A stretch of 64,000 nt of DNA, taken from the NCBI GenBank assembly GCA_022072165.1, contig JAJVIF010000001.1, forward strand, positions 1,692,575-1,756,574, in the 5' to 3' direction. The number at the start of each line of letters is the position of its first letter. Position 1 is the first letter of the stretch. The notes beneath the pieces are model-generated. The model made no database searches. It was not told the DNA's origin and saw nothing but the letters and a program-made list of their open reading frames with translations. Shown here one piece after another: positions 1 through 17,527 of this stretch. The position numbers were made by a program, and so were the translations under genes. Source of the stretch: a bacterium. Its GTDB lineage: Bacteria; JAJVIF01.

Positions 1-1671
1 AGGACCATTGAAGGTGAACGTGATGGGCGAGGCAAGCGGCACCGTCGCCGGATACGGCGAGTTGACGGTCGTCGCCAGCGTGTAGGTGCCATCGTTGTCC
101 CAGTCCACGAGGATGTCGATGGGGTCGCCATCGTCATCGTTCGGGGCCGTGACCGTCAGGCCAAACGCGCAGTTCTCCGCGACCGTTGCCGCGTCCATCG
201 CGTAAGTCCCGGTGGGGGCGGCATTGTCGGGGAGCATTTCCACGGTGAACGCCTGATAGGTGACGGGATCCGGGGTGCTCGGCAGGGGAGCGAGGGACTC
301 ATTGAGTCCGATGGTCAGGCCGGTCTGCGGATCGGTCGCGCGGACCATCCCCTTGTAGAACCCAGCTACCTGACCGGAGCCAGCGAGCTTGGTGACCAGG
401 GTGCTGTAGTACAGCGCATCGCCAGGGCGCCCGCTGTCCTCATCCACATCGCCGCCGACGCCGGAGTCGTCATCGACCACGGTCGAGGCATCCGCCGTCA
501 CCGTCGCATCACCCAGGACATCCGGGATGCAGACATCGAGGGTCGGGGTGCCCGACTCGCCCTGCGCCACGTTGGTGAAGCTGGAGTCGTTCGCCAGATC
601 CGCCTCGGCGGACTCGGTCGCCCGGGCATCCCAGTCTTCCACATGGAAGCTCATGGTCTGCGCGGAGATCGTGTTGGCGATGAAGCCAGCGGTTTCGGGC
701 AGGACGGTGATCTTGCCGGCATCCAGGGCTCCGTGGGGCATCCGATAGGCGAAGAGGCTCGCATCCGGACTTGCCGGAGGCAGGCGATTGGCCTTCTTCT
801 GCGCCGCCGTCGCACCACCACGCGGATCGTTGTAGACCGCGATGATGGAGACATCGAGGCTGAATCCACCCGTGAGGGCCGCTTTATTCAGGCTCATGGT
901 GTTGGTGACTGACTGGCCCTGGTGCATGACGCCATAGCCGGTCCAGCCGTTGTTGCCCGTACCGAACTCACTCCGGGTCCAGCCATCGCTGCCGAAGTTG
1001 CCAGTGACATCGCCGCCGTTGGACACGCCCACGCGGGGATCCAGCGACTCATCCACGAGCTGCTTGTACGGGTAGGTGTTGGCGGTGCCGGAGGTCGTCA
1101 GCAGCCCGCCGGGGCTGAAGTACGCATCGGCGTTCGCCACCAGGTCCGTATTCGCCACGCGGTCGGTGAAGTAGGTGTTCCCACTCGCCGGCGCATCGGC
1201 CATGATCAGGACCATCCCCGCCACGCCAAGGTCGGCGCGGTTGGTGGACCCGTTGGGGGTCCCGGTGGGGTTATTCGGGGCCGGGAACGGATGCTTGACC
1301 ACATAGCCCAGGTCGATGGTGGTCGCCGTGGCCGTAATGCCCGTGATCGCGAAGGACCCGGCATTCAGGAAGCTGTCGATCGAGAGCAGATACAGATCGT
1401 CGTTGGCCGCGACCGTCCGGGTCTCCTTGAGCCGGCTGGTCGCCTGCAGCGAGACCGGATCAATATCCAGCGTGTAGATCGCCAGCGCAGCGGTCGCCAG
1501 GTCCCCATTGATAAACGGGGTACCGAGCGCACCACTGGCGCCCAGAGCAGCCTGGGGCAGTGTGGCGGAATCCGGTGCGGTCTGCGGAGCCGTCACCGGA
1601 GAGCCACTCCCCGAGCACCCAAGCGTGGCGAGCAGCGCGGATGCCGCCAGCCACCAGGTGAGATTGCGCAT
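1..1671 (-). CDS. Lipoprotein with shared N-terminal module (copy 1, C-terminus cut by window)
   Basis: The coding region is open to the window edge, with 557 codons visible. ATG at 1671 follows a strong AGGAGG site. The signal peptide ends in a lipobox (ATLGC, Cys19), so the protein is probably a membrane-anchored lipoprotein. Residues 1 to ~480 match the same module in the two downstream paralogues (for example GNFGSDGWTRSEFG and VDDDSGVGGDVD), but with many more substitutions than those two show to each other. After the module begins a PKD/cadherin-like stretch with an Asp-rich DWDNDGTY loop, also found in the copy at 5926-8787. The role is unknown; a surface or extracellular structural or sensing protein is an inference from architecture only. 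Confidence 0.85.
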   Translation of the reverse strand, partial: MRNLTWWLAASALLATLGCSGSGSPVTAPQTAPDSATLPQAALGASGALGTPFINGDLATAALAIYTLDIDPVSLQATSRLKETRTVAANDDLYLLSIDSFLNAGSFAITGITATATTIDLGYVVKHPFPAPNNPTGTPNGSTNRADLGVAGMVLIMADAPASGNTYFTDRVANTDLVANADAYFSPGGLLTTSGTANTYPYKQLVDESLDPRVGVSNGGDVTGNFGSDGWTRSEFGTGNNGWTGYGVMHQGQSVTNTMSLNKAALTGGFSLDVSIIAVYNDPRGGATAAQKKANRLPPASPDASLFAYRMPHGALDAGKITVLPETAGFIANTISAQTMSFHVEDWDARATESAEADLANDSSFTNVAQGESGTPTLDVCIPDVLGDATVTADASTVVDDDSGVGGDVDEDSGRPGDALYYSTLVTKLAGSGQVAGFYKGMVRATDPQTGLTIGLNESLAPLPSTPDPVTYQAFTVEMLPDNAAPTGTYAMDAATVAENCAFGLTVTAPNDDDGDPIDILVDWDNDGTYTLATTVNSPYPATVPLASPITFTFNGP

Positions 1672-1913
1672 GATGTCCTCCTGCGAAGCAGTCGAGAGTA
1701 AGTGGGACGTAACCAGTCAGTGCCGGGGGCTGCACTGGACCTGGGACACGCGGCGTGACCGGGTGTCGCCAACCCGCCGATCCTGCGTGACGGCAGGCCG
1801 GGGGCGAAGAGTCAGTTCAGCTGGGCACTGGTGCGGTGTCAACCCATAGGCTGCCACACCTCCGACCTCATCTGAGGGCAGAGTACGAATGCGGGACGCT
1901 TAGGGATGTCGGC

Positions 1914-1943
1914 ATTATGCCCGAAAAGCCCTGTCCAATGCAA
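1914..1943 (-). promoter_or_regulatory. Candidate promoter for the first lipoprotein gene
   Basis: On the minus strand TTGCAT (1938-1943) and CATAAT (1914-1919) are separated by 18 nt, close to sigma-70 spacing. This would give a leader of roughly 240 nt before the ATG at 1671. The 352-nt gap 1672-2023 otherwise contains only the terminator of the preceding gene; I see no gene in it. Confidence 0.4.
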
Positions 1944-1969
1944 CCGGGAATCAAACGGCAGCGCATCAG

Positions 1970-2000
1970 CAAACCGACCCCCGGGAGTCCCGGGGGCCGT
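1970..2000 (-). terminator. Rho-independent terminator of second lipoprotein gene
   Basis: A GC-rich inverted repeat (CCCCGGGA against TCCCGGGG) lies 24 nt past the stop codon at 2024, with a short T run on the minus strand after the stem. It resembles the hairpin that ends the third lipoprotein gene at 5867-5899. Confidence 0.75.
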
Positions 2001-2023
2001 GCGGTGTGCTGACAGGCCGAGCC

Positions 2024-5000
2024 TTAATAGAACGCTCCAGGACCGGAGGCCAGCCTGACGGCATAGATGTCGCCTCCCCCGGCCGATGTGCGGTAATGCG
2101 TCCCCGGTCCGGGATCCCAGTCCACCACGGTCGAGGTGCCACCCCACTGACCGGTCATCACCGGATCACCGCCCGGAAGCACCGCGATCCCGGACCCGTA
2201 CTCAAACACACTGGTAGTGCCCCAAACCCGGCTGTAGCCGGTGAGGGCTCCAGTCAGCTTTTCGTACTTTGCCAGGATGATGTCTGCCGCCGTGGAAATG
2301 GACGGAACGGCACCATAACCCCAGTTCGAGGTGGTGTCGCTGTAGTGACCTGAGACGAAGAAGTCGGTGGAGGAGACGGCTCCGCAAGCCACCAGGTTGT
2401 AGGACGATCCGGTCAGGGCCCGTTGCCAGACAGGAACATTGGCCAACGTATAACGCCCCACGAATCCCTGCGTGAAGCTGGAGGCAGTCATGTTGCCCAG
2501 CGGCGCACCAAGTGACATGGTCTGACCGGCCGCGCCGGCCCAGTGTCCGGTCACATAGATACCGGTCGTGTCGATGGCCAGACTCGTGACCTGCTCGTTC
2601 CCGGTCGAGTTGCTGGCGATGATCCGATCGCTCCCGGGGATGAAAGCACCCGTGGCCGCATCGTACCCGGCGATAAAACCATCCTGACCGCCAACCGCAG
2701 GGACTTCGCCAGCCCCCAGATCGATGTAGCTGGCAAACGTTCCGCCAGCGTAGGGATTACCGCTGGGATCGACAGCAACACAGGTGCCGTACTGGTTCCA
2801 GCCGTTCGTAAAGGGCATGGCCATTTCCACTGCCCACTGGGCGAGCAAATTGGTGCTGTACTTCACCAGCGGGGCACAGCGGACATTACCCAGTGGCAGC
2901 GTCACGCCGTTACCGAAGTCCAGCGTGCCGTAATTGCCCAGCGGTGACCCCGTGTGATAGACCTCCCCAGTGGCCTTGTTGACCGCCATGACCCTCGATG
3001 ACGGTCCATACGCGGCTGAACTCAGGGAACCAGCTACTCCAGGGAGTACATACCAGTCCACAGGGTCTGCGGTTCGGGTCACGGCCAGACAGGTCCCTGC
3101 AGCATCGAACTTTAGAATAAAGAGTTCTTCCCGCCCGGTCCCCACAGCGGTCTGATTGGTAGCAGCGCCACCAAGCCCGTTAATCACAAGCTCCGGACTG
3201 CTGAAGCTCCCCGAAACGTAGACATTCCCGGCGTTGTCAGTATCGAGCCCGAGGAACTGACCGTAACTTCCGGTCTGGCCCCAGACACGATCCCAGACAT
3301 AGCCACCGCCCGAATTCAGCTTGAGCAGCCAGTACTGTTGCATGGAACCCACGGGGGGGCGGGTGCCACCTCCAAAATCCAGTTCGGCGAAGGTCGACCG
3401 GTTACCGCCGAGATAGACATTGCCGGCTGAATCAGTCGCGATAGATCGGGGGATCTCCTGTGCAGTCGTGCTGGTGAGCGGCGTGTAGATCCAGCCCGAT
3501 CCTGCCACGTTGATGTTGCCTGTCACCACCGGGAAAAAATCCGTACCTGAAGTGGTGGGGTGCAACGCATCGTTGGCGTACACCGTAAACTCGACTGTCG
3601 AGTGCGGCGGATTGGTGATAGGCGTCGTGTGAGCAGGATGTGGGAACGACGCAAACGTCATCACGTCCCCGGTCCGATTGTTCGTGATGGTGTAGGAGAC
3701 CTCGTCCCCTTCCGGGTCGATGACATTCACGGTGCCGACATTCATCACAAAGTTGGCTGGACTGGTCATCCAGTCATTCCCCAGCACCGGGATTCCCAGA
3801 ACTTCCGGCGGACGATTCGGGCCGAGGGTCCAGTTCACGGTCCCAGTAATGGGAGCCGCAAGGACACCGTCGGTGTATGCAAAATTTACGGTCCGTACTG
3901 TCGGGCTCAGCGAGGTGCTGTTGTAGTAGTTGGGAGCAGAGATAAGCACCGGCGGTGGGCTATCCAGGAGCCGGTAGTCCTCCCACGGATCATCAAAATC
4001 CCCATCCCCATTCCAGTCGAAGCGGATGGAGACCAGATCCCCGTTCGGATCACTGTAGGCTGTCACGGTCAACCACAGCGCGCCGGTTGCAGATACCACA
4101 ACCCCCGCAGGACCATTAAGTGTCACGGTGGGTGCCTCGTTGTCTGTCAGCAATTCCACGGTGAACGCCTGATAGGTGACCGGATCCGGGGTGCTCGGCA
4201 GGGGAGCCAGGGACTCGTTCAGCCCGATGGTCAGGCCGGTCTGCGGGTCGGTCGCACGGACCATCCCGGTATAGGCACCGGCAGTCTGGCCAGAGCCCGC
4301 CGCCTTGGTGACCAGGGTGCTGTAGTACAGCGCATCGCCGGGGCGGCCGCTGTCCTGATCCACATCGCCACCCACGCCGGAGTCGTCATCGACCACGGTC
4401 GAGGCATCCGCCGTCACCGTCGCATCACCCAGCACGCCGGGGATACAGACATCAAGGGTCGGGGTCCCCGACTCGCCCTGCGCCACGTTGGTGAAGCTGG
4501 CGTCGTTCGCCAGATCTGTCTCGGCGGACTCGGTCGCCCGGGCATCCCAGTCCTCCACAAAGAAGCTCAGGGTCTGCGCGGAGATCGTGTTGGCGATAAA
4601 GCCAGCAGACTCAGGCAGGACCGAAATCTTGCCGACATCCAGCGCGCCGTGGGGCATGCGATAGGCAAAGAGGCTTGCATCCGGGCTCGCCGGAGGCAGG
4701 CGGTTCGCCTTCTTCTGTGCTGCCGTCGCGCCACCGCGGGGGTCGTTGTAGACCGCGATGATCGAGACATCGAGGCTGAACCCACCACTCAGCGCGGACT
4801 TGTCGAAGCTGACCGTGTTGCTCACGGTCTGCCCCTGGTGCATGACACCGTACCCGGTCCAGCCGTTGTTGCCGGCCCCAAACTCACTCCGGGTCCAGCC
4901 ATCGCTGCCGAAGTTCCCGGTGACATCCCCACCATTGGAGACGCCGGAGCGGGGGTCCAGGGTCTCATCGACCAGCTGCTTGTACGGGTAGGTGTTGGCG

Positions 5001-5590
5001 GTCCCGGAGGTCGTCAGCAGCCCACCGGGGCTGTAGTACGCATCGGCGTTCGCCACCAGGTCCGTGTTGGCCACGCGATCGGTGAAGTAGGTGTTGCCGG
5101 TCGCCGACGGCACATCCGCCAGGAACAGCACCATCCCCGCCACGCCCAGGTCGGCGCGGTTCGTGGACCCGTTCGGGGTCCCGGTGGGATTGTTCGGGGC
5201 CGGGAACGGGTGCGCGACGGCGTACGCCAGATCCACGGTGGTCGCCGTCGCGGCCACGCCGGTGATCTTGAACGAGCCGGCGGTCAGGAAGCTGTCGATG
5301 GAGAGGAGATACAGGTCATCGTTCGCCTGCCCGGAGCGGGTCTCCTTCAGCCGGCTGGTCGCGGTCAGCGACGCCGGGTCCACATCGACCGTATAGATAG
5401 CGAGCGCGCTCTGATGGAGCATCCCCGACTGCGTCGGGGTGCCAAGAGCGGCCGAAGCGGAAGTCACGGGGTGCGTGCCATCAGGCGACGTCCCCGCCGT
5501 GGACGGCATGATCGGGGTCGATCCGCCGCCAGAGCAGCCCAGGGCCACCAGGGCCAGGCTGCTCGCGAGCCACCATGCAACTGTGCGCAT
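2024..5590 (-). CDS. Lipoprotein, shared module plus SBBP-type beta-propeller (copy 2)
   Basis: This 1188-residue protein starts at ATG 5590, directly after GGAGGAAAC; an upstream in-frame ATG at 5641 lacks such a site. The signal peptide ends in VALGC, giving a lipid-anchored Cys19. Residues 1-480 are the shared module. Residues ~490-700 contain Ig/PKD-like segments with Asp-rich loops (FDWNGDGDF, DPEGDEVSYT). Residues ~720-1180 carry repeats of the SBBP type (DSAGNVYLGG, DNAGNVYVSGSF, DPSGNPYAGGTF), a family expected to form a beta-propeller. Length is typical of large secreted repeat proteins. No catalytic motif is recognised. The first 1.44 kb is nearly identical to the next paralogue, which points to recent duplication or gene conversion. 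Confidence 0.9.
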   Translation of the reverse strand: MRTVAWWLASSLALVALGCSGGGSTPIMPSTAGTSPDGTHPVTSASAALGTPTQSGMLHQSALAIYTVDVDPASLTATSRLKETRSGQANDDLYLLSIDSFLTAGSFKITGVAATATTVDLAYAVAHPFPAPNNPTGTPNGSTNRADLGVAGMVLFLADVPSATGNTYFTDRVANTDLVANADAYYSPGGLLTTSGTANTYPYKQLVDETLDPRSGVSNGGDVTGNFGSDGWTRSEFGAGNNGWTGYGVMHQGQTVSNTVSFDKSALSGGFSLDVSIIAVYNDPRGGATAAQKKANRLPPASPDASLFAYRMPHGALDVGKISVLPESAGFIANTISAQTLSFFVEDWDARATESAETDLANDASFTNVAQGESGTPTLDVCIPGVLGDATVTADASTVVDDDSGVGGDVDQDSGRPGDALYYSTLVTKAAGSGQTAGAYTGMVRATDPQTGLTIGLNESLAPLPSTPDPVTYQAFTVELLTDNEAPTVTLNGPAGVVVSATGALWLTVTAYSDPNGDLVSIRFDWNGDGDFDDPWEDYRLLDSPPPVLISAPNYYNSTSLSPTVRTVNFAYTDGVLAAPITGTVNWTLGPNRPPEVLGIPVLGNDWMTSPANFVMNVGTVNVIDPEGDEVSYTITNNRTGDVMTFASFPHPAHTTPITNPPHSTVEFTVYANDALHPTTSGTDFFPVVTGNINVAGSGWIYTPLTSTTAQEIPRSIATDSAGNVYLGGNRSTFAELDFGGGTRPPVGSMQQYWLLKLNSGGGYVWDRVWGQTGSYGQFLGLDTDNAGNVYVSGSFSSPELVINGLGGAATNQTAVGTGREELFILKFDAAGTCLAVTRTADPVDWYVLPGVAGSLSSAAYGPSSRVMAVNKATGEVYHTGSPLGNYGTLDFGNGVTLPLGNVRCAPLVKYSTNLLAQWAVEMAMPFTNGWNQYGTCVAVDPSGNPYAGGTFASYIDLGAGEVPAVGGQDGFIAGYDAATGAFIPGSDRIIASNSTGNEQVTSLAIDTTGIYVTGHWAGAAGQTMSLGAPLGNMTASSFTQGFVGRYTLANVPVWQRALTGSSYNLVACGAVSSTDFFVSGHYSDTTSNWGYGAVPSISTAADIILAKYEKLTGALTGYSRVWGTTSVFEYGSGIAVLPGGDPVMTGQWGGTSTVVDWDPGPGTHYRTSAGGGDIYAVRLASGPGAFY
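4154..5590 (-). repeat. 1.44-kb near-identical direct repeat, unit 1 (second unit 7351-8787)
   Basis: This segment aligns without gaps to 7351-8787 at a constant offset of 3197 nt. By eye I count five differences, all in the ~260 nt nearest the start codons; two change an amino acid (Ser to Gly near residue 10, Ser to Thr in KETRxGQ). The repeat covers the signal peptide and the shared module and stops where the C-terminal domains diverge. Confidence 0.9.
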
Positions 5591-5800
5591 AGTTTCCTCC
5601 TGCGAGTTACCGGAATTGAGAATGCGGAAAGGTGCTGTCATCCGTACGCGAGGCTTCAGCCAGAGTGCTCCTCAGAGTGCGGGACAATCACGGCGAACCA
5701 GTCGGCCGTGGCAGTTCCTCACCGGCCGGACCCACCACTGGGCCCTCCCTGTCGATCCCTCGTCAGAGTCAACTGCGCTTGTGAGTGCGCTGATTTTCCC

Positions 5801-5809
5801 ACAGTAGCA
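5801..5809 (-). promoter_or_regulatory. Extended -10 promoter candidate for lipoprotein copy 2
   Basis: The minus strand reads TGC followed by TACTGT, the same extended -10 form seen before several other genes here. The leader to ATG 5590 would be ~200 nt. The rest of the 5591-5866 gap shows no gene. Confidence 0.4.
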
Positions 5810-5866
5810 TTAGCCACGACAAGCACAACTCCGCCACTGCGGCGGTGAAAAGAGTTTCGGCCTGGC

Positions 5867-5899
5867 AACAAAACGGCCCCCGGGAGTCCCGGGGGCCGT
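5867..5899 (-). terminator. Rho-independent terminator of third lipoprotein gene
   Basis: A perfect 13-bp inverted repeat (ACGGCCCCCGGGA and its complement) with a one-base centre lies 27 nt beyond the stop at 5926. It is followed on the minus strand by TTTTGTTG. Confidence 0.85.
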
Positions 5900-5925
5900 G
5901 CAAGATGCTGGTGAGCGACTGGGGA

Positions 5926-8787
5926 TTACTGCCAGCCAGTCGGCGGAGTCGTGAACCGGGCCGAGTTGGTGTACCCGGAGGTCCCCTTGGTCAGCAGGAT
6001 GTTCTGCCGGTTCACACAAACCAGCTGTCCCATGTTGAACAGGGTGCCACTCAGGTCCGGACCCGAAGCGTAGTTGCTCAGGTCCGAGTTGAAGTACCGC
6101 AGGTCCGGCTGGCCCGCACTGGTGTTGTTCGAGCCCACCACGATCTGCTGCTGCCCCTGGCTCGCCAGTACACCCCCGGAGGCGTCGCGCTGGTCAATCC
6201 AGATGTCAGCAGGGATCGAGAAGGTCGTACTGGTGTTCAGATTGATCACGGCCGGGTTGGGATTTCCCGACAACGTGGCGCTGACCGTGCCATCGCATTC
6301 GATGCGCAGGAGGCGGCCATTCGGGACAACCAGGTTGGACTGTGCCAGGATGAAGAAGGCCTTCGAGGCAAAGTCGATGGCGAAATCCTGGACGCGCCAG
6401 GTGGTCGTCGGTCCGAGGTTGTACGGAGCGTTCTTCAGGTCCATGGGATACGGGGCGGTGACGATCTCGGCGGTATAGCCGCCGGCAGTCCGGTCATACC
6501 GACGCAGGATGTTGTCCTGGCCGATGAGATACAGATTGCCGAGCTGATCCAGGGACATCGCCACGATCGGCGACGGTGCGGTGAAAGTCCCCTCAAACGC
6601 GGAGACAGTCGCACCACCCGTATAGGTCACCCAACCGACGTTGACACTCGCACCAGTCCCATAGCGGGTCGCGGGCGACCAGACATCCGTACCTGACGCA
6701 GTTGAGCGCCAGGACCAGACGATCCGGTCGTTGCTGTCAATCTCGACCTGCGTGGTCATGCCGACCTGCGTCGGGGACGCAATCGTCGCGATGGGAGTGG
6801 GATCAAGCACGCCCGCCGACGAATAGCGCGAGATGCTGAAAGGCCCAGATGAGCCAGGGGTGGTAGGAACCACGAAGTCGTCCGACCACGCGTTGTTGGA
6901 ACTGAACATGGCGATATCAGCCCAGCCCCAGAAGGTTCCGGTGGTGTTGGTTGCGCCAGCATAGGTGAAGGCTCCCGTGACCGGGGTGCCGCCCGCTGCA
7001 GCATACGCCGGACATGAGGCAGGTGCGTCGACTTCAAAGGTCGGGGTCGGCGCGATGTCGACCTGGGCGGTGCCATCATCCAGCCGCACCGGCAGGTCCC
7101 GAATATCGGGAGCCGGCGGATTGTGGGTGTAGGTGATGGGGGATGAGAGCGGAATCACACCCGCGTAAGGCGAGTTCACGGTCGTCGCCAGCGTGTAGGT
7201 GCCGTCATCATCCCAGTCCACCAGGATGTCGATCGGATCGTCATCGATATCCGCGAGGCCGTTGATGCTGATGCTGACGCTGCCGCCATCCGCCACATTC
7301 GGCGTGGTCACGACCACGGTGGCGCTCGGCGGAGCGTTGTCCGGGAGGAGTTCCACGGTGAACGCCTGATAGGTGACCGGATCCGGGGTGCTCGGCAGGG
7401 GAGCCAGGGACTCGTTCAGCCCGATGGTCAGGCCGGTCTGCGGGTCGGTCGCACGGACCATCCCGGTATAGGCACCGGCAGTCTGGCCAGAGCCCGCCGC
7501 CTTGGTGACCAGGGTGCTGTAGTACAGCGCATCGCCGGGGCGGCCGCTGTCCTGATCCACATCGCCACCCACGCCGGAGTCGTCATCGACCACGGTCGAG
7601 GCATCCGCCGTCACCGTCGCATCACCCAGCACGCCGGGGATACAGACATCAAGGGTCGGGGTCCCCGACTCGCCCTGCGCCACGTTGGTGAAGCTGGCGT
7701 CGTTCGCCAGATCTGTCTCGGCGGACTCGGTCGCCCGGGCATCCCAGTCCTCCACAAAGAAGCTCAGGGTCTGCGCGGAGATCGTGTTGGCGATAAAGCC
7801 AGCAGACTCAGGCAGGACCGAAATCTTGCCGACATCCAGCGCGCCGTGGGGCATGCGATAGGCAAAGAGGCTTGCATCCGGGCTCGCCGGAGGCAGGCGG
7901 TTCGCCTTCTTCTGTGCTGCCGTCGCGCCACCGCGGGGGTCGTTGTAGACCGCGATGATCGAGACATCGAGGCTGAACCCACCACTCAGCGCGGACTTGT
8001 CGAAGCTGACCGTGTTGCTCACGGTCTGCCCCTGGTGCATGACACCGTACCCGGTCCAGCCGTTGTTGCCGGCCCCAAACTCACTCCGGGTCCAGCCATC
8101 GCTGCCGAAGTTCCCGGTGACATCCCCACCATTGGAGACGCCGGAGCGGGGGTCCAGGGTCTCATCGACCAGCTGCTTGTACGGGTAGGTGTTGGCGGTC
8201 CCGGAGGTCGTCAGCAGCCCACCGGGGCTGTAGTACGCATCGGCGTTCGCCACCAGGTCCGTGTTGGCCACGCGATCGGTGAAGTAGGTGTTGCCGGTCG
8301 CCGACGGCACATCCGCCAGGAACAGCACCATCCCCGCCACGCCCAGGTCGGCGCGGTTCGTGGACCCGTTCGGGGTCCCGGTGGGATTGTTCGGGGCCGG
8401 GAACGGGTGCGCGACGGCGTACGCCAGATCCACGGTGGTCGCCGTCGCGGCCACGCCGGTGATCTTGAACGAGCCGGCGGTCAGGAAGCTGTCGATGGAG
8501 AGGAGATACAGGTCATCGTTCGCCTGCCCGGTGCGGGTCTCCTTCAGTCGGCTGGTCGCGGTCAGCGACGCCGGGTCCACATCGACCGTATAGATAGCGA
8601 GAGCGCTCTGATGGAGCATCCCCGACTGCGTCGGGGTGCCAAGAGCGGCCGAAGCGGAAGTCACGGGGTGCGTGCCATCAGGCGACGTCCCCGCTGTGGA
8701 CGGCATGATCGGGGTCGATCCGCCGCCAGAGCAGCCCAGGGCCACCAGGGCCAGGCTGCCCGCGAGCCACCATGCAACTGTGCGCAT
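5926..8787 (-). CDS. Lipoprotein, shared module plus divergent C-terminus (copy 3)
   Basis: This 953-residue protein uses ATG 8787 after GGAGGAAAC, the same start context as copy 2; the in-frame extension to 8916 is not used here because it passes the likely promoter. The lipobox VALGC gives Cys19. Residues 1-480 are the shared module, almost identical to copy 2. Residues ~490-560 contain a PKD-like segment (DPIDILVDWDDDGTY) also present in copy 1. The remainder has propeller-like repeats (LDQLGNLYLIGQDN, GRLLRIECDG) unlike the C-terminus of copy 2. A single conserved module is thus fused to different distal domains. Function is unknown; an extracellular location is inferred. Confidence 0.9.
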   Translation of the reverse strand: MRTVAWWLAGSLALVALGCSGGGSTPIMPSTAGTSPDGTHPVTSASAALGTPTQSGMLHQSALAIYTVDVDPASLTATSRLKETRTGQANDDLYLLSIDSFLTAGSFKITGVAATATTVDLAYAVAHPFPAPNNPTGTPNGSTNRADLGVAGMVLFLADVPSATGNTYFTDRVANTDLVANADAYYSPGGLLTTSGTANTYPYKQLVDETLDPRSGVSNGGDVTGNFGSDGWTRSEFGAGNNGWTGYGVMHQGQTVSNTVSFDKSALSGGFSLDVSIIAVYNDPRGGATAAQKKANRLPPASPDASLFAYRMPHGALDVGKISVLPESAGFIANTISAQTLSFFVEDWDARATESAETDLANDASFTNVAQGESGTPTLDVCIPGVLGDATVTADASTVVDDDSGVGGDVDQDSGRPGDALYYSTLVTKAAGSGQTAGAYTGMVRATDPQTGLTIGLNESLAPLPSTPDPVTYQAFTVELLPDNAPPSATVVVTTPNVADGGSVSISINGLADIDDDPIDILVDWDDDGTYTLATTVNSPYAGVIPLSSPITYTHNPPAPDIRDLPVRLDDGTAQVDIAPTPTFEVDAPASCPAYAAAGGTPVTGAFTYAGATNTTGTFWGWADIAMFSSNNAWSDDFVVPTTPGSSGPFSISRYSSAGVLDPTPIATIASPTQVGMTTQVEIDSNDRIVWSWRSTASGTDVWSPATRYGTGASVNVGWVTYTGGATVSAFEGTFTAPSPIVAMSLDQLGNLYLIGQDNILRRYDRTAGGYTAEIVTAPYPMDLKNAPYNLGPTTTWRVQDFAIDFASKAFFILAQSNLVVPNGRLLRIECDGTVSATLSGNPNPAVINLNTSTTFSIPADIWIDQRDASGGVLASQGQQQIVVGSNNTSAGQPDLRYFNSDLSNYASGPDLSGTLFNMGQLVCVNRQNILLTKGTSGYTNSARFTTPPTGWQ
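7351..8787 (-). repeat. 1.44-kb near-identical direct repeat, unit 2
   Basis: Partner of 4154-5590; no insertion or deletion was noticed between the two units. Upstream of the start codons only short blocks such as GCTGTCATCCGTACGCGAGG remain shared, so the near-identity stops close to the ribosome-binding site. Confidence 0.9.
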
Positions 8788-8860
8788 AGTTTCCTCCTGC
8801 GAGAGTCCACAAAATAGTGTGCAGAAAGACGCTGTCATCCGTACGCGAGGGGCCGAACTG

Positions 8861-8866
8861 ATAGTA
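8861..8866 (-). promoter_or_regulatory. Candidate -10 element for lipoprotein copy 3
   Basis: TACTAT on the minus strand would give a leader of ~65 nt to ATG 8787. It shares the 362-nt gap 8788-9149 with the divergent promoter of the export operon. I see no gene in the rest of that gap. Confidence 0.35.
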
Positions 8867-9131
8867 CCCCGAAGAGCAAGATGAGGCGTGCGAGACTTCA
8901 CTGGCAGGGTGTCCATTGCAGCGACCTGTCGCGGTACTACTGCGACTGGCCTGGACTTCCAAGCCTGGGTTCCCGTGACCTATGGATTGGCAAGCGTAAC
9001 GTCTGCCGTGCCCACGAAGGGGCGACCGTGAAAGACGGTGAGCCTGAAATCCCCGGGCTTTTGGGTGCCTCCGATTATGCACCACCCCTAGCAGTACTGG
9101 CAATAGCGCAAGACGCGACCTATCGCGGCGC

Positions 9132-9137
9132 TATCAT
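9132..9137 (+). promoter_or_regulatory. Candidate -10 element of the ABC export operon
   Basis: TATCAT lies 12 nt before ATG 9150. A transcript starting ~7 nt after it would have a leader of only ~5 nt, and no Shine-Dalgarno site is visible. Confidence 0.45.
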
Positions 9138-9149
9138 CCCCGACACACG

Positions 9150-10283
9150 ATGCGACCTCGCCGCCACACCCCTCTCGCTCTCCTCCTCTGCCTGCTGGCA
9201 GCCCTCGTAAGTTGCCAGGCCCACGATGCGGCCCATCTCGATCTCACCGGCACGGTCGAAATCACCCGACTGACCCTCGCATCCCGGGTCGGCGGGCGAG
9301 TCGCGACCCACGCCGTTTCGGAGGGAGAAACAGTCGCTGCTGGAGCCATCGTGATCACGCTGACAGAGCCGGCACTCGCGGCCCAGGCATCCGTGCTGGC
9401 CGCTCAGCGGGCACAGGCCGAGGCGACTCTGGCGGAACTGGAAGCCGGAGCACGTCCTGAGGAAGTCGCGCAGGCCCGGGCAGTGCTGGCGGCCGCAGAG
9501 TCGCGACTCCACTTGCTGGAAGCCGGGAGTCGCGCTGAAGAACGCGCCCTCGCACGGACCGAAGCCGACCTCGCACGGGCGATCCTTGACCAGGCGGAAC
9601 GGGACGCCTCCCGCGCTCGCGACCTCTTCGCGGCGGGGGTCATCGCCCAACAAGAACTGGAACAAATCGAGCTGACCCGGACCCGGGCTGCCGATCAGTG
9701 GCGGCTCGCCGACCAACGCCTGCAACTGGCGGAAGCCGGCCCCCGCCCCGAAGAAGTCGCCATCCTGCGAGCACAGGTCGCCCAGCAGCAGGCCCAAGTC
9801 GCCCTCCTTGAGGCAGGACCGACACCCGAAGCCCTGGAACGCGCCCGGCAGTTGGTCCGGCAGGCGCAGGAGCAGGAAGCCGCACTGTCAGCAGACCTGG
9901 CGGAACTGGAGGTCCGGACCCCGCGGGCGGGAGTGGTCGACCGCCTGCTGCTGGACCCCGGGGAGGTCGCGATGCCGGGACAGGCCCTCTGTTCCCTCCG
10001 GGACCCGGCCGATGTCCGCCTCCGGGTCTGGCTCCCGGAGTCTCAGCTCGGACGAGTCCAGCCCGGCAACACCGGAACCGTGACACTCCATGGCGACCAG
10101 CCACCGTTGCAGGTGACCGTGGTTACCATCGCGAGTCAGGCCGAATTCACGCCCCGGAACATCCAGACGCCCCAGGAACGGGCGACACAGGTCTTCGCCA
10201 TGGACTGCCGCTTCACCGACCCGCCCGACTGGCTCCGGGATGGCATGACCCTGACAGTCCGCTTTGACCCCACCACCCCATGA
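9150..10283 (+). CDS. HlyD/YbhG-like membrane fusion protein of ABC exporter
   Basis: The 377-residue protein has a signal peptide ending in LVSC, so Cys22 may be lipid-modified and anchor it to the membrane. Residues ~40-75 form the first half of a biotinyl-lipoyl-like domain (SRVGGRVATHAVSEGETVAAG). Residues ~85-250 are an Ala/Glu/Arg-rich alpha-hairpin with recurring LEAG-x-RPEE units. The lipoyl half returns at ~255-285 (VRTPRAGVVDRLLLDPGE), followed by a beta-barrel. This is the layout of periplasmic adaptors linking an inner-membrane ABC pump to an outer channel. It overlaps the next gene by 4 nt. No outer-membrane channel gene is adjacent. The substrate is unknown. Confidence 0.88.
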   Translation: MRPRRHTPLALLLCLLAALVSCQAHDAAHLDLTGTVEITRLTLASRVGGRVATHAVSEGETVAAGAIVITLTEPALAAQASVLAAQRAQAEATLAELEAGARPEEVAQARAVLAAAESRLHLLEAGSRAEERALARTEADLARAILDQAERDASRARDLFAAGVIAQQELEQIELTRTRAADQWRLADQRLQLAEAGPRPEEVAILRAQVAQQQAQVALLEAGPTPEALERARQLVRQAQEQEAALSADLAELEVRTPRAGVVDRLLLDPGEVAMPGQALCSLRDPADVRLRVWLPESQLGRVQPGNTGTVTLHGDQPPLQVTVVTIASQAEFTPRNIQTPQERATQVFAMDCRFTDPPDWLRDGMTLTVRFDPTTP

Positions 10284-11263
10284 CGCAGCATCTGCCCCCC
10301 GGCGATCTGGCGGTGGATGCCCGAGGATTGTCCCGTCGGTTCGGCGACTTTGTCGCGGTCGATCAGGTCGACCTCGCGGTCCCCAGAGGGCATATCTTCG
10401 GTCTCTTGGGTCCCAACGGATCGGGAAAAAGCACCACCATCCGGATGCTCACCGGCCTCCTGACACCCTCTGCCGGAACCGCCCTGGTCCTGGGGCACGA
10501 TGTCATCCGCGAGTCCCGGCAGATACGGGCCAGTATTGGCTACATGGCGCAGCGATTTGCCCTCTACGCCGAGCTTACCGTGCAGGAAAATCTCCAGTTC
10601 TTTGGACAAATTTATGGACTCACCGGACAGCGGCTCCGCCAGCGGATCGACACCCTCTATCAACGCCTCGAACTCGGCCCCTATGCCTCCCGACGTGCCG
10701 GGCAGCTGTCCGGTGGCTGGAAGCAGCGTCTGGCCCTCGGCGCAGCGCTGCTGCATGAGCCGGCCCTGATCTTCCTCGATGAACCGACCGCCGGCATCGA
10801 CCCGGTGGCACGTCGCGACATCTGGGATCTCCTGGCCACCTTCGCGCAACAGGGCCTGACACTCTTTGTCACGACCCACTACATGGACGAAGCGGAGCGC
10901 TGCCAGAGTCTGGGGTACATCTATCAGTCACGACTCCTCGCGCTGGGGACACCGCAGGAGCTGAAAGCCTGGCCCGGCATCACGCCCGCCGGCACCCGTC
11001 GCCTCGCCCTCGCCACGCCGGAACCCGCCAGAATCATGACCGCCCTCGCCCATTGGGAGCCGATCCACGCGGCATCCCTGTTTGGGGCGGAAGTGATTGC
11101 CCTCGCTGATGACACGCTGGAAGAAGCCGCCATTCGTCGCTACCTCCAGGAACAGCAGCTCACGGTCGGCGACATTCGCGAGACCGCCCCCAGCCTGGAG
11201 GATGTGTTTGTCGGGCTCTCGCGCATGGCGCAACAGGAACTCGTCGGACGGGGGCAGCGATGA
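10280..11263 (+). CDS. ABC transporter ATP-binding protein
   Basis: This 327-residue ATPase energises the ABC-2 export system encoded around it. Walker A is GPNGSGKS (44-51), the Q-loop glutamine is near 91, the signature is LSGGWKQ (143-149), Walker B is LIFLDE (163-168) and the switch histidine is H200 in TTHYMDEAE. The C-terminal ~110 residues resemble the regulatory tail of drug or multidrug exporters of the YbhF/CcmA type. It starts in an ATGA overlap with the adaptor gene and ends in an ATGA overlap with the permease gene, so the three are almost certainly cotranslated. Confidence 0.95.
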   Translation: MTQHLPPGDLAVDARGLSRRFGDFVAVDQVDLAVPRGHIFGLLGPNGSGKSTTIRMLTGLLTPSAGTALVLGHDVIRESRQIRASIGYMAQRFALYAELTVQENLQFFGQIYGLTGQRLRQRIDTLYQRLELGPYASRRAGQLSGGWKQRLALGAALLHEPALIFLDEPTAGIDPVARRDIWDLLATFAQQGLTLFVTTHYMDEAERCQSLGYIYQSRLLALGTPQELKAWPGITPAGTRRLALATPEPARIMTALAHWEPIHAASLFGAEVIALADDTLEEAAIRRYLQEQQLTVGDIRETAPSLEDVFVGLSRMAQQELVGRGQR

Positions 11264-12405
11264 TCCGCTGGTGGCACCATCTCGTGGCGGTTGCCCGCAA
11301 GGAGGTGCTGACCCTTCTCCGGGATCCGCTGGCGCTGGTTCTGATGTTCGGCATCCCGAGTCTGCAGCTGGTGATTTTCGGCTACGCCATCAACACCAAC
11401 ATCAGTCACATCCGGACCGCGGTCCTGGACCTGGATCATGGGCAGGCAGGGCGTCAGTTTGTCCAGGCGCTCGAGAGCACCGGAACCTTCGACCTCACGG
11501 GGGCTGTTCACTCCACTGAGGCGCTGGAAACCGCCATGCGTTCCGGGCAGGTGCAGGTGGGGGTGGTGATCCCGCAGGGCTTCACTACCGAGCGGCAGGC
11601 GGGACGCCCGGCGCAGGTCCAGTTCCTCATCGATGGGTCCAACGCCACCATCGCCAACACGGCCCTGCAGACTGGCCAGGCTCTTGGGCTCCACCTCTCC
11701 ATGCAGGCGGCCGGCGAGCGCTTGCTCCTGCGGGGCATCGTCACCTCCGAGCCATTGACGCCATCGGTGGAGGTCCGTCCCCGACTGCTGTACAACCCCG
11801 ACCTCAAAAGTTCTCACTTTTATGTCCCAGGGCTCATCGGGGTCGTGCTCCAGATTATCCCGGTCTTCCTCACCGCTTTTGCGATTGTGCGGGAACGTGA
11901 GAGCGGCACACTTGAGCAATTACTGGTCACACCAGTCGAAAAGAGCGCCGTAATTACCGGGAAACTTATACCTTATCTGGGAGTCGGCTTCCTCGAACTC
12001 CTCTTCGTGTTGACCGTCATGCAGCTCCTCTTTCAGGTCCCGATCCGGGGGAGCCTGCTCCTGCTGGTCCTGCTCTCGACCCTCTTTATCCTCACGGCCC
12101 TCGCCATCGGACTCCTCATCAGCACGGTGGCGAAGACCCAGCCCCAGGCGATGCAACTCGCTTACCTCATCATGCTCCCCTCGATTTTGCTGTCGGGCTT
12201 CATGTTTCCCCGGGAGAGTATGCCGTCCATCTTGCAGGGGCTGTCGTTGGCCCTGCCGGTCACCTACTACCTTGAAATCCTGCGCGGCACAATCCTGCGC
12301 GGGGCTCTCTGGGTCGACCTTTGGGATGAAGCGCTGGTCCTGGGACTGATGATGCTCGTGCTCACCACCGCCAGTGTCCGCAACTTCCGCAAGACGCTGG
12401 AGTAA
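11260..12405 (+). CDS. ABC-2 type permease
   Basis: The 381-residue membrane protein has one N-terminal transmembrane helix (~25-47, around MFGIPSLQLVIFGYAIN), a ~150-residue extracytoplasmic domain and about five C-terminal helices (~185-375). This is the ABC2_membrane_3 layout of YbhS/YhhJ-like exporters. The family motif region GLIGVVLQIIPVFLTAFAIV precedes RERESGTLEQLLVTP, a conserved cytoplasmic loop of these permeases. YbhGFSR-type systems usually encode two permeases, but only one is present, so it probably homodimerises. Substrate is unknown; xenobiotic or lipid export is plausible from homology. Confidence 0.92.
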   Translation: MIRWWHHLVAVARKEVLTLLRDPLALVLMFGIPSLQLVIFGYAINTNISHIRTAVLDLDHGQAGRQFVQALESTGTFDLTGAVHSTEALETAMRSGQVQVGVVIPQGFTTERQAGRPAQVQFLIDGSNATIANTALQTGQALGLHLSMQAAGERLLLRGIVTSEPLTPSVEVRPRLLYNPDLKSSHFYVPGLIGVVLQIIPVFLTAFAIVRERESGTLEQLLVTPVEKSAVITGKLIPYLGVGFLELLFVLTVMQLLFQVPIRGSLLLLVLLSTLFILTALAIGLLISTVAKTQPQAMQLAYLIMLPSILLSGFMFPRESMPSILQGLSLALPVTYYLEILRGTILRGALWVDLWDEALVLGLMMLVLTTASVRNFRKTLE

Positions 12406-12486
12406 GGGGTGCGCTGGTTTCTCTGAAGTACCTTTCCCCCACCCGCTCGGTGCATCGAAACTACAATCACTTTCAGGAGGCGCAAC

Positions 12487-12684
12487 ATGTGCGTGATCTG
12501 TCATCTTGTCGGCGGACTCTGCAAGCTCGTCTGGACCAGCCTCCTGACGCTGGATCGCTTCGCCCCCCGGGCGGCTTCCTGGCTGAGTCTGCGCCTCACC
12601 TGTCCTGCAGCCTGCCCCATGCCTGCGGACCGTCTGCAGTCTCTCGCCGCCCCTCGACCTCCATCACGGACTTCCCTGCGCTAG
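12487..12684 (+). CDS. Possible 65-residue Cys-containing small protein
   Basis: The ORF starts at ATG 12487, 6 nt after a good AGGAGG site that sits 81 nt beyond the permease gene. The N-terminus MCVICHLVGGLC has a CxxC and a third Cys close by; the C-terminal half is Pro/Arg/Ser-rich and ends by running 21 nt into the convergent TPR gene. The ribosome-binding site is the main support. No family is recognised and the C-terminal composition looks like a shadow of the opposite strand, so the call is tentative. Confidence 0.35.
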   Translation: MCVICHLVGGLCKLVWTSLLTLDRFAPRAASWLSLRLTCPAACPMPADRLQSLAAPRPPSRTSLR

Positions 12685-14970
12685 CCGGACCGCCGCCTGG
12701 TACTCGTAGTGGTGCGTGAGTCCTGTGGCGAGACAGGTCGCGAGGGCCATCGCTGATTCCTGCGGCGCACTCTTTCGCAGCACCTGCGCGATGTGATACT
12801 CGACCGTACAGGCCCGTCGCGACTGCTCAGTCGATGAAATGTGCGCTTCCTGATAGGCCGCTGTCCGGACTTCCGCTGGCGTGCTTTCTCCCAGGTAGAG
12901 TCCGATCACACCCCGTATCCAGACCCGGTCCTCAGCGCGTGCGACTTCCCGCAGCATCGATTCTGCATGGGGATCGCCAAGCTCCTCCAGACAGAGGTAA
13001 TAGAAGAGCCGGGCCCGGGTATGCTCCGGCACCCTGGCGACAAAGGTCGCGATGGCCTCTGCCGCATCGGCGTAGCGCTCCTGCAGGAAGCAGGCATGTC
13101 CTCGCCCATAGGTCGCGATGCCCGAGCGTTCCTGCGCGGCCTCCGAGGCGGTGTAAGCCGCTTCTGCGGCTGCCAGATCCCCGCGCAGATACGCGACATG
13201 TCCCCGGTAGAGCCAGTACCGCGCCTCGGGGATGTCGGCCGTCGTGAGGGTCTCCAACGACCGCTGCGCGGTATCCCCATCCCCTGCGGCCGCCCGGACA
13301 TACGCCCCCTGCAGCGCCAGCTCATACGCATCCGGATTCCGCGCTGCACCTTCCTCAAGGAGCCTCGCTGCTGCGACGTAGTCCCCCCGATCGAACAAGA
13401 AGCGCGCCGGATGGAGCCAGGTTGACGGCAGATGACCTGTCCGGGTTCGGGCCAGCACGAAGGAGGTCCCTGCCGCCTCCAGATCATCCTCCCGGGCCGC
13501 AAGGACCGCGCGATTCTCCAGCACGACTGCCCGTCGCGGACGCGCTTCTTCCGCCAGCGTCCAACTCGACTTCGCCGACTGTGTCGCTCCCCGATACCAG
13601 GACCAGACGCCCCGGTTGTTCAGCAGCACTGGATCGCCGGGAGCTTTGGGAAACGCGGTCGCCTCCCACTCCGCAACCAGACGTGTCGGGGCCTGCAAAC
13701 GACGCAGGATCTCCTGGTGCAGCAAGGCCGCGTGATTGGGGGACTGCGCTGGCCAGCGCACCGCCAGGGGCTCTGTCAGATCGTAGGCCTCGCGCAGGCG
13801 ACTCTGCCGCATCGAGACATACCCCAGCAGTAAGCGCGCAGAAGGGTCCCGGGGCACGAGTCGCAGCGCAACCCGTGCCAGTTCATCGCTCATGCTCAGA
13901 CTCTCGGCCTCCAGCGACTGTGCTGCCGCCAGCAGGCAGATGCCGCTCTCGAATCGTCGCTGACGCATGGTCCCGGGCCAGTGCAGCGCGATGAGCCGAC
14001 GCCATCCGTGCGAGGTCCTGATGGAACCGGTCCAGTCGAGGGCTTCATAGCCACGCCAGGGTGCCAGGACTCCACCATTGGCACACTGCACTAGGTATGT
14101 CCTGAGGGCAGCGACATACAGGGTCGGCACCCGCGCAGCTCCCTCTTCCGCGAGTCCCAGGGCCGACTCCGCCGACTCGAAACGTGCCTGTCGCAAATAA
14201 AACACTGCTGCCGCCAGGGGGGCCTGTTCCATCAGCAGCGCCTCCGCCACCGAGTTGATTCCCCAGCGCCAGTCCCGCCCTTCGATGATGTCGCTATGCA
14301 GGGAGCGTCCGTTGAGCTCGGTCTGCAACATCAGCTTGCCATCCGCTGCCAGGATGGTCCCGGACAGCACTACCACTTTGCGTCCCAGCAAGCGCCAGTA
14401 CCCCTGCTGCAGCACGGTTTGTGGCCAGACCTGCGATGCGGTGGGGCTTCCGGACGTCGTCCACCACCAGCCGCGCCGAACCCGGAGCCGCAGGTCCGGC
14501 GCAGCGGGATACCAGCGGACCTGTTCAGTGGAAGTGATCGATCGGTCAAGAGAAGGCGCACCGATGCGCAGCTCGAATCCCGGCTGTTGCAGTGTCGTAA
14601 ATTGCTCATCCAGACGGGTCACGATCGTCTCGGCAGCATTGACCGGAGACTGCCCCCCTGGTCCCAGCGACCCCCGAATCGTCAGGGGAGTCACGAGCAC
14701 CACGGTCTCCCCCTGCCCACTCCACCAGGCCGACAGCCAGCTCACCAGAAAGAGGGCTATCAGTGCGGTCCGGCCGAGACGTCGCCACTGTCGACGCTGA
14801 ACTGTTCCCCGGATCCCCCAGAGAAAATCCGGACCGCCGACTGGTGGGAGGCGTCGCGCCTCCCGGCGGCCAGTGGCTTGGCGTGCTGCTGGCTCGTCTC
14901 GCCCCATACGTGGTTCGGCATCTGCCGGGGCAGCCAGGGGGGGACGGCGTTCCCGTCGGCCTGCGGTCAT
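12664..14970 (-). CDS. Large membrane-anchored TPR protein
   Basis: The 768-residue protein begins with an Arg-rich ~45-residue cytoplasmic segment and one transmembrane helix (~47-64, around IALFLVSWLSAWW). A ~170-residue region of unknown fold follows, containing beta-rich stretches and a Trp-rich patch (RRGWWWTT). From ~230 to the end the sequence is tetratricopeptide-like, for example TYGRGHACFLQERYADAAEAI near the C-terminus. Its ATG overlaps the stop of the pyrimidine phosphorylase gene by 4 nt, so the two are translationally coupled. TPRs suggest a scaffold for protein assemblies on the outer face of the membrane. No enzymatic motif is visible. Confidence 0.85.
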   Translation of the reverse strand: MTAGRRERRPPLAAPADAEPRMGRDEPAARQATGRREARRLPPVGGPDFLWGIRGTVQRRQWRRLGRTALIALFLVSWLSAWWSGQGETVVLVTPLTIRGSLGPGGQSPVNAAETIVTRLDEQFTTLQQPGFELRIGAPSLDRSITSTEQVRWYPAAPDLRLRVRRGWWWTTSGSPTASQVWPQTVLQQGYWRLLGRKVVVLSGTILAADGKLMLQTELNGRSLHSDIIEGRDWRWGINSVAEALLMEQAPLAAAVFYLRQARFESAESALGLAEEGAARVPTLYVAALRTYLVQCANGGVLAPWRGYEALDWTGSIRTSHGWRRLIALHWPGTMRQRRFESGICLLAAAQSLEAESLSMSDELARVALRLVPRDPSARLLLGYVSMRQSRLREAYDLTEPLAVRWPAQSPNHAALLHQEILRRLQAPTRLVAEWEATAFPKAPGDPVLLNNRGVWSWYRGATQSAKSSWTLAEEARPRRAVVLENRAVLAAREDDLEAAGTSFVLARTRTGHLPSTWLHPARFLFDRGDYVAAARLLEEGAARNPDAYELALQGAYVRAAAGDGDTAQRSLETLTTADIPEARYWLYRGHVAYLRGDLAAAEAAYTASEAAQERSGIATYGRGHACFLQERYADAAEAIATFVARVPEHTRARLFYYLCLEELGDPHAESMLREVARAEDRVWIRGVIGLYLGESTPAEVRTAAYQEAHISSTEQSRRACTVEYHIAQVLRKSAPQESAMALATCLATGLTHHYEYQAAVRLAQGSP

Positions 14971-16349
14971 CCGCTCAAACTGGCGCTGGTGAGGACTTCA
15001 GCGATAAGCGGTGGCAGGGTCGCCGGTCGTTCGGGGCCAATGGTGATGAGCGATTGCAACGCTGCGACTGTCGCGGCGGCCTGCTCCTGCGATGCAGCGT
15101 GGACCTCTGCCAGCGGCTCCCCGGCCGCGACAGCATCGCCGAGATGCACCAGCAGCCGGAGCCCCACGGCGGGGTCCAGGACATCGGCCTTGGTGCGACG
15201 TCCACCCCCCATCCCCCGGACCAGTTCGCCGATCTCCCGCGTCGCGAAGTGTGTCACGAACCCCGAGTCCAGCGCTGGACAGGGCTGCACTACCGGAGCT
15301 GTTGCAAGGAAGTCCCACGGACGCTCCGCTACCTGTGGGTCCCCCCCCTGCAGGCTCACCCACTTGCGAAACACCTGCAGCGCTTGTCCCGTATGCAGGA
15401 ACGCCTGGATGCATTCGATGGTCAGGTCACTGCTGTCGCAACATTCCCAAGGGGCATCGGACGTCCGGCCGCCGCATGCCTGATAGACCTGCACCATTTC
15501 CCACGCCAGCCGGCAGATCAGCTCTTCAAAATCCTTCGGACCCCGCCCCTGTAGCGTCTCGATCGCCTCCGCGATCTCCAGCGCGTTTCCCACCGCGCTT
15601 CCCAGTGGCTGCTCCATGCTGGAGAGAACCGCCCGGACAGTCCTCCCGGTCCGCTCCCCGATGGCGACCATGGTCTCCGCCAGCTGCCGGGCATCTTCGT
15701 ACCGCTGCATGAAGGCCCCTTCACCGTACTTCACATCCAGCACGATGCCGTTGGCCCCCCCGGCGATTTTCTTGGACATGATGGACGCCGCAATCAGCGC
15801 GATGTTGTCCACCGTGACCGTGACATCCCGCAGGGCGTACAGCGCTTTGTCAGCGGGCACCATGTCCGCCGTCTGCCCCGCGATCACCAGTCCGCAGTTC
15901 GTGAGAATCGACCGCATCTGCGACGGTGTCAGATCCACCGTGAAACAGGGAATGCTTTCGAGCTTGTCAAGGGTGCCACCCGTAAAGCCGAGTGCCCGCC
16001 CGGAAAACTTCGCCACCGGGATCCCCAGGGCAGCCACCAGCGGTGCCAACGCAATGGTGGTCTTGTCCCCGACCCCGCCCGTGGAATGCTTGTCGACGAC
16101 GATTCCGACATCGGACCAGTCACAGGTCCGGCCATGCGCCGCCATTGCGAGTGTCAGGGCTGCTGTCTCATCAAAGTTCAGATCGCGCCAGCAGACCGCC
16201 ATGAGCCAGGCCGCCACCTGATAGTCCGGCAGGGGCGAATCCGACGCAATCAGGGCAGCGATAAACGCATCCAGCGCTTCCGGCGTATGGCTCCCCCCAT
16301 ACTTCTTGGTGGCGATGAATTCGAGCATGGAGAAGGGCGATGTGGTCAC
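14967..16349 (-). CDS. deoA: Thymidine/pyrimidine-nucleoside phosphorylase
   Basis: The 460-residue enzyme belongs to nucleoside phosphorylase family II, which splits thymidine (and often uridine) with phosphate to base and (deoxy)ribose 1-phosphate for salvage. The phosphate-binding KHSTGGVGDKTT lies at 87-98 and the family signature FSGRALGFTGGTLDKLES at ~115-132. Length is slightly above the usual 430-440. GTG 16349 is chosen because a TACAAT hexamer ends 6 nt before it, suggesting a leaderless mRNA; ATG 16328 (MLEFIATKK) is the alternative. DeoA and Pdp cannot be separated from sequence alone. The other deo genes are not nearby. Confidence 0.92.
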   Translation of the reverse strand: MTTSPFSMLEFIATKKYGGSHTPEALDAFIAALIASDSPLPDYQVAAWLMAVCWRDLNFDETAALTLAMAAHGRTCDWSDVGIVVDKHSTGGVGDKTTIALAPLVAALGIPVAKFSGRALGFTGGTLDKLESIPCFTVDLTPSQMRSILTNCGLVIAGQTADMVPADKALYALRDVTVTVDNIALIAASIMSKKIAGGANGIVLDVKYGEGAFMQRYEDARQLAETMVAIGERTGRTVRAVLSSMEQPLGSAVGNALEIAEAIETLQGRGPKDFEELICRLAWEMVQVYQACGGRTSDAPWECCDSSDLTIECIQAFLHTGQALQVFRKWVSLQGGDPQVAERPWDFLATAPVVQPCPALDSGFVTHFATREIGELVRGMGGGRRTKADVLDPAVGLRLLVHLGDAVAAGEPLAEVHAASQEQAAATVAALQSLITIGPERPATLPPLIAEVLTSASLSG

Positions 16350-16375: not shown

Positions 16376-17527
16376 CTAGCCGGGGAGTTTGCCGCTCTGC
16401 TCCCGGGCCCGCTGCTCGATTTCCAGCAGCGTTGTCAGCGCCAGGTCCTGCAGAGCATTCTGGCTGATCTCCCCAGCATAGAGCAGTGAATAGAGCATCT
16501 GCTCGCCGTTCCAGGTATGCGTCCAGAGGACCAGATGGCGGTCGCCAGCGTGTGCATAGCGAAACTCGTACTCATCCACCCGGACCGCCGGCAGGGCTTC
16601 AGCGCCGGAGACCGGCTCGCCCGCCTTCCAGGGCGAGCACATCACCGCGACTGTCGCGCCATCCATGTCCATGACCGCACAGGCGACATCCTTCTGATCT
16701 GCGCGCCAGACATCGGCGGAGACATACGCCCCCAGATCGGGAAAGACCACCGGGCTCCAGCTGACATTCCGGGCGACAAAATGCTCGACCCCGGTCACGC
16801 TGGAGTCTTCCAGCTTGCGATAGGTCTGGAAGTTCACCGCCAGCAGGGCTTCGACATAGTTTTTCTCGGCCACAATCCCCGGATCGCCCCGGTCCACCGG
16901 ACCGGTCGGGCGCATGAACTGGCCCACCAGGAGCCCCAGCAGCAACAGCGCTGCGATGCCCGCCGCATAGAAGTACTGGATCCGGGTCCGGACCACTTTC
17001 GCGCTCTCGGTCTGACGCGCCAGCTGGGCCGCCGAGGGCAACGCCACCCCATTCGAGGCGGCTGGCTGCACCGGCACCTCGAGCAGGACTTCCTCAGGGA
17101 AAGGCCAGGGAAAACTCTCCCGACCCGCTGCCCGATCTTCCGGCGCGATGGCCGCCGCTGCCAACTCCGCATCATCCCTGGTCGAGACCCGTCGTGTACT
17201 GAATTTGGAGAGTCGGCGAATCCGCTCTGCTTCGGTCTCTGGGACCGGCCAGGTCCCGGGCAGTTCTTCGGCGGCTGGAGCATCAGCGAGCCGAGACTGG
17301 AATCGCTCCCACAGGCCTCCTGGTGCGACCTCCTCTCCCGCCGCTGCCAGTGCCCCGCGCAGCCCTTTCAGTTGCTGCATCCAGGGACCGCACCCCTCGC
17401 AAAGCCGGAGATGGGCCGCGACCTTTTCCGCCTCTGTCTGTGGCAGGACTCCATCCAGATACTCATAGAGCCGAGGGTAGGTCTCTTCACAGGTGAAGCC
17501 ACCGCGAGGCAGGGCGGGAGTCGTCAT
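16376..17527 (-). CDS. Transmembrane anti-sigma factor with zinc-finger (ZAS-like) domain
   Basis: The 383-residue protein begins with an anti-sigma zinc-finger-like domain: Cys13, His39, Cys43 and Cys46 form the HxxxCxxC arrangement (HLRLCEGC) typical of RsrA/RseA-type zinc anti-sigma factors. A linker of ~140 residues leads to one transmembrane helix (~195-215, around IAALLLLGLLVGQF), then a ~165-residue outer domain. It starts in a 4-nt overlap with the upstream sigma factor gene, the usual arrangement of a sigma/anti-sigma pair. It probably holds the sigma factor inactive at the membrane until an envelope or redox signal is received. The outer domain is not recognised. Confidence 0.88.
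   Translation of the reverse strand: MTTPALPRGGFTCEETYPRLYEYLDGVLPQTEAEKVAAHLRLCEGCGPWMQQLKGLRGALAAAGEEVAPGGLWERFQSRLADAPAAEELPGTWPVPETEAERIRRLSKFSTRRVSTRDDAELAAAAIAPEDRAAGRESFPWPFPEEVLLEVPVQPAASNGVALPSAAQLARQTESAKVVRTRIQYFYAAGIAALLLLGLLVGQFMRPTGPVDRGDPGIVAEKNYVEALLAVNFQTYRKLEDSSVTGVEHFVARNVSWSPVVFPDLGAYVSADVWRADQKDVACAVMDMDGATVAVMCSPWKAGEPVSGAEALPAVRVDEYEFRYAHAGDRHLVLWTHTWNGEQMLYSLLYAGEISQNALQDLALTTLLEIEQRAREQSGKLPG

Follow-up and report, generated by a model that had tools for sequence, protein, structure and literature searches.

The tandem lipoprotein genes

The window analyzed here is a 64,000-nt stretch of a bacterial genome (lineage JAJVIF01; assembly GCA_022072165.1, contig JAJVIF010000001.1, positions 1,692,575 to 1,756,574). 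The genome comprises 3.26 Mb in four contigs, referred to as C1 to C4, and is 99.1% complete. Three genes for predicted lipoproteins, named A, B, and C, lie in tandem at the beginning of the window. Their features are collected in Table 1, together with a second near-identical gene pair (X1 and X2) located elsewhere in the genome.

Table 1. Features of the tandem lipoprotein genes (positions in the window) and of the X1/X2 pair (positions on contig C1).
Feature	Position	Strand	Description	Basis
Gene A	5926-8787	-	Predicted lipoprotein, 953 aa, lipobox Cys19; module of codons 1-479, then A-class distal part of ~473 aa	ORF, boundaries, lipobox conserved in alignment
A module	7351-8787	-	Five differences from B module	Alignment; AlphaFold2, all-beta
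A distal part	5926-7350	-	Linker and probable propeller	
Gene B	2024-5590	-	Predicted lipoprotein, 1188 aa	ORF
B module	4154-5590	-		Alignment with A
B distal part	2024-4153	-	Linker of ~225 aa, then SBBP-type beta-propeller	Pfam SBBP, Foldseek, tree
Gene C	1-1671	-	Leaves the window; whole ORF C1:1691354-1694290; A-class tip	
5' flank of A	8788-8862	-	Homologous to B flank, diverged	
5' flank of B	5591-5665	-	Counterpart of A flank	
Hairpin 3' of A	5866-5910	-	Terminator-like; 12-bp stem at 5873-5899, T-rich tail	
Hairpin 3' of B	1967-2011	-	Terminator-like; 84% identical to that of A	
X1	C1:1022273-1025896		Second near-identical pair	
X2	C1:1016325-1020038		Second near-identical pair	

The alignment of 7351-8787 with 4154-5590 ran over 1,437 nt without a gap, which is exactly the extent over which the sequence-only reading had claimed near-identical 5' modules. 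Its count of five differences near the start codons was exact as well. These differences are found at 0-based nt 27, 92, 185, 239, and 255 from the ATG (both genes on the minus strand), all within the first 256 nt. Three of them are synonymous and two are non-synonymous, and the rates between the two modules were dS 0.0078 and dN 0.0019. The following 1,181 nt (7351-8531 and 4154-5334) contain no difference. If the differences were placed uniformly, all five would lie within the first 258 nt with a probability of approximately 2e-4, and this clustering at the 5' end suggests two or more tracts. Between A and B, the five sites are of mixed polarity.

The similarity between A and B breaks off at codon 480. 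The distal parts (473 aa in A and ~708 aa in B) displayed no detectable homology, with no blastp match at E 1e-3 and a profile-profile probability of 4%, in agreement with the earlier claim that the C-terminal parts are unrelated. On the 5' side, nt -16 to -1 are identical, and the flank from nt -75 to -18 is still homologous, with differences at 20 of 58 positions. By these alignments, the near-identical piece is sandwiched between an older, diverged homologous flank at its 5' side and an unrelated distal part at its 3' side. Because the 5' flank is old, module copying is favored over a recent whole-gene duplication for the A/B pair.

Gene C is the third, more diverged copy that had also been claimed at this locus. 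Its module is 84% identical to those of A and B, with dS 0.61, and the dN/dS between the A and C modules is about 0.2, which indicates purifying selection. Among the distal parts, those of C4:33652 (39%), C1:1681676 (35%), and C (34%) are closest to that of A.

Upstream of A and B, where the sequences have otherwise diverged, both genes share an exact 20-nt block, CCTCGCGTACGGATGACAGC, at 8831-8850 and 5634-5653. This block was not present in the other family loci that were fetched, and it possibly has a regulatory role. Approximately 8 kb from the array, a gene for a sigma-70-family factor (17524-18207, minus strand) adjoins a zinc-finger, anti-sigma-like gene (16376-17527, minus strand).

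Size and distribution of the family

The three genes stand at the edge of a genome-wide family of predicted lipoproteins, and this family is very large. In this genome, the module gave 77 matches by tblastn and at least 141 by profile search. The genes with a full module that were extracted numbered 75 and occupy at least 6.7% of the genome; for 51 of these, another such gene is no more than 12 kb away. Strict terminator-like hairpins were found 3' of 31 of 73 family genes, compared to 0 in shuffled controls. Many copies therefore resemble transcription units of a single gene. Broken members were observed at C1:1685000-1688037, C1:158581-159831, C2:420678-421526, and C2:381435-382799; in one, a frameshift separates the module from the tip, and three have an in-frame stop.

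A relative from the same class, MAG AUK107 (JAGGVT01), showed 108 module profile matches, and two further genomes of the class showed 10-11 each. No genome with the module was found among the 144 searched outside the class, which is a small sample, and confinement of the module to the class is only suggested. Furthermore, the module was not found on plasmids, and a contig scan queried with the A module returned no match. The contig JAHIRU010000051.1, which is assigned to a Nanoarchaeota MAG but probably mis-binned, encodes a relative of the AUK107 module.

The module as a predicted anchor and stalk

The lipobox pattern was present in 64 of 75 members, Asp at +2 was present in none, and Cys19 was kept in 90% or more of the members in the alignment. 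Based on the criterion of a signal peptide with a lipobox, the family members are predicted bacterial lipoproteins. The AlphaFold2 model of the A module is all-beta, with pLDDT values mostly of 85-98. A Foldseek search with the full A model yielded no more than weak matches to tandem Ig-like and macroglobulin-like structures (TM about 0.15), and since these matches were weak, no fold family was assigned to the module. The Pfam scan of A, B, and C gave no family for the module, and no sequence relative was found in the PDB.

The sequence-only reading had described this part as a fixed export and attachment module. This part is not a short signal but consists of the lipobox and a predicted Ig-like stalk, ~480 aa in all. 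The modules range from 28 to 100% identity across the genome and are homogenized locally.

The genome contains three copies of Omp85. LolA was not found in it (Pfam), despite the very large lipoprotein family. The members are predicted to be outer-membrane or cell-surface lipoproteins. With less confidence, we infer that the family provides a repertoire of surface heads, for binding or catalysis, which are all carried by a common type of anchor-stalk.

Distal parts

The tips are mostly beta-propellers that follow PKD-like linkers. The domains recognized across 69 distal parts were PKD (15), SBBP (8), BNR (4), Ig-like, and others. The B tip matched Pfam SBBP at 23.1 bits, compared to the gathering score of 20.5, and its fold resembled the CylK beta-propeller (Foldseek E 1e-18, probability 1). 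A had no Pfam match. Its tip showed weak Foldseek matches to propeller structures and, judged from the model, is probably a different propeller from that of B. At C1:905006-907882 (plus strand), the family module is fused to PKD and a di-haem cytochrome c peroxidase of the MauG type (E 2e-49, two CxxCH motifs), which would place a redox enzyme on the stalk.

Different histories of modules and tips

The X1 and X2 genes are identical over 2,269 nt, with zero differences. The identical tract starts at the hairpin that forms the terminator of the gene upstream and continues through a TATAAT-like box, the leader, the module, and the linker. It ends at the start of the propellers, which are ~25% identical. 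In a tree of the propellers of 14 genes, B and X2 were joined with support of 100/98. The propeller data rejected a forced X1+X2 grouping (AU p = 0.0016), although the X1 and X2 modules are identical.

The same conflict was observed in an older pair. The modules of C4:36677 and C4:33652 are 79% identical and sisters (100/100), whereas sisterhood of their tips was rejected (AU p = 4e-5). The identities of module and tip also contrasted in A/C (84% vs. 38%) and in the C3 pair (80% vs. 37%). A split of the A and C tips was tested and not supported, since A+C sisterhood in the tips was not rejected (AU p 0.33); deep tip trees are poorly resolved.

Other neighbor pairs displayed matching divergence of module and tip (51/47, 61/57, 50/52, and 44/46%). 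Because such pairs are equally diverged in both halves, the tips are not intrinsically faster. In 37 of 64 genes, the best partner of the module differed from that of the tip. Furthermore, 34 of 75 genes had their nearest module no more than 20 kb away, compared to 2.7 by permutation.

Probable recombination of the module and alternative explanations

Among neighboring members, the modules are far more alike than the tips, and the edges are abrupt. The sharp-edged near-identical tracts, together with the conflict between module and tip trees, indicate a family that appears to be under gene conversion, or concerted evolution. Our preferred reading, with a probability of about 0.75, is that homology-limited gene conversion homogenizes the module, with the tips remaining distinct. 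RecA-type homologous recombination would copy module tracts between paralogs, mostly neighbors, and a tract would halt where homology fails, either at the tip or within common terminator or leader sequences. The display chassis would be homogenized while the tips stay distinct, and new chassis-tip pairs would arise occasionally. RecA is present in this genome. The earlier proposal of cassette diversification by recombination or gene conversion holds in so far as the two halves are decoupled, as seen in the X1/X2 pair and in the AU conflict between module and tip. The dominant process, any adaptive role, and the surface location of the proteins are what we infer from these patterns.

The alternative that survives best, and which we regard as rather doubtful, is an Rhs-like tip replacement, in which a recent whole-gene duplication is followed by displacement of one distal part by a donor tip. 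The X1/X2 pair is consistent with it, as promoter, module, and linker are identical while the X2 propeller groups with that of B. A pure C-terminal exchange would give the same picture, and module copying and tip replacement cannot be told apart for this pair. However, the A/B 5' flank is homologous but old and gives no support for a recent whole-gene duplication. In addition, the fetched loci included only one tip without a module, and this was derived from a frameshifted gene.

An assembly or polishing artefact, in the form of a collapsed, duplicated, or chimeric repeat, is very improbable. Exact repeats of 1.2-2.3 kb are present in a draft assembly of four contigs, and long-read polishing can turn near-identical repeats into identical ones. 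However, both copies have unique flanks and tips, the five differences were kept, the ORFs are intact, and the contig extends over 1.88 Mb. Long-read polishing could erase small repeat differences but could create neither the older pairs nor the conflicts between trees. These older pairs, at 79-84% identity, show the same pattern, and no artefact makes those.

A dedicated diversification machinery, such as retroelement mutagenesis, site-specific inversion, or transfer of silent cassettes to one expression site, rates lower still. The many copies and variable tips would suit it, but the genome contains no reverse transcriptase (no PF00078 match, controls positive), by which a diversity-generating retroelement was ruled out. 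No inverted repeats of at least 40 nt were found in positions 1-16000 of the window, and the copies are nearly all intact, many with their own terminator-like hairpin.

Least probable of all are stable paralogs produced by whole-gene duplication, with the module under purifying selection and the tips diverging fast: the A/C dN/dS and some neighbors resembling plain duplicates are consistent with it, but divergence cannot yield non-homologous tips at dS 0.008, plain duplicates show equal divergence of module and tip, and the sharp edges and AU rejections also argue against an explanation that is contradicted by A/B, X1/X2, and the C4 pair.

A wider form of the gene conversion reading is put forward more tentatively than tip replacement, as a chassis-and-passenger display. 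A single lipidated stalk module, in some cases together with its promoter, would be copied repeatedly by recombination onto unrelated heads at no fewer than 75 loci, and strains of this uncultured lineage would thus differ in their surface repertoire. The heads would comprise several propeller classes, PKD arrays, and the di-haem peroxidase.

Comparison with known systems

The PE/PPE proteins have a conserved N-terminal module and a variable C-terminal part, and they are exported by the type VII route. In Mycobacterium tuberculosis, gene conversion between PE/PPE paralogs has been documented in long-read genomes (PMC13061034). The present family resembles them as a large paralog family with apparent gene conversion among copies. 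Unlike PE/PPE, A, B, and C contain no PE or PPE domain (Pfam), export is predicted through the lipobox, the module is ~480 aa long, and the tips comprise propellers, PKD domains, and, in one case, an enzyme.

In Rhs genes, the core and the C-terminus are evolutionarily decoupled via homologous recombination, with displacement of C-terminal tips (PMC2935791). The evolution of core and tip is likewise decoupled here. In contrast to Rhs, A, B, and C showed no Rhs match (Pfam), the extracted copies are without arrays of dissociated tips, and the conserved part itself is homogenized between neighbors. The family works like PE/PPE and Rhs, and the domain features tested place it in neither group.

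The LipL53 family of Leptospira (NCBIfam NF047494) also combines a lipoprotein with an SBBP beta-propeller. However, B scored 37.7 bits over 714-795 against NF047494, which is far below the membership cut-off of 400 bits, the N-terminal module differs, and A had no match. The fold of the B tip is like that of the CylK-type beta-propeller (PDB 7fh8 and 7ron), but the B tip is only 17-18% identical, and an alkylating activity is not inferred for it.

Significance

A single lipoprotein family takes up at least 6.7% of this genome, and its module has neither a Pfam family nor a PDB sequence relative. The surface-protein module and its tip would be evolving apart by recombination, in a lineage without known surface biology. 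The tract boundaries, from promoter or terminator to linker, are concrete and testable in strain genomes. Should families of this type be common in uncultured phyla, automatic annotation and best-hit orthology would be wrong for them, because the best module and tip partners differ in over half of the genes.
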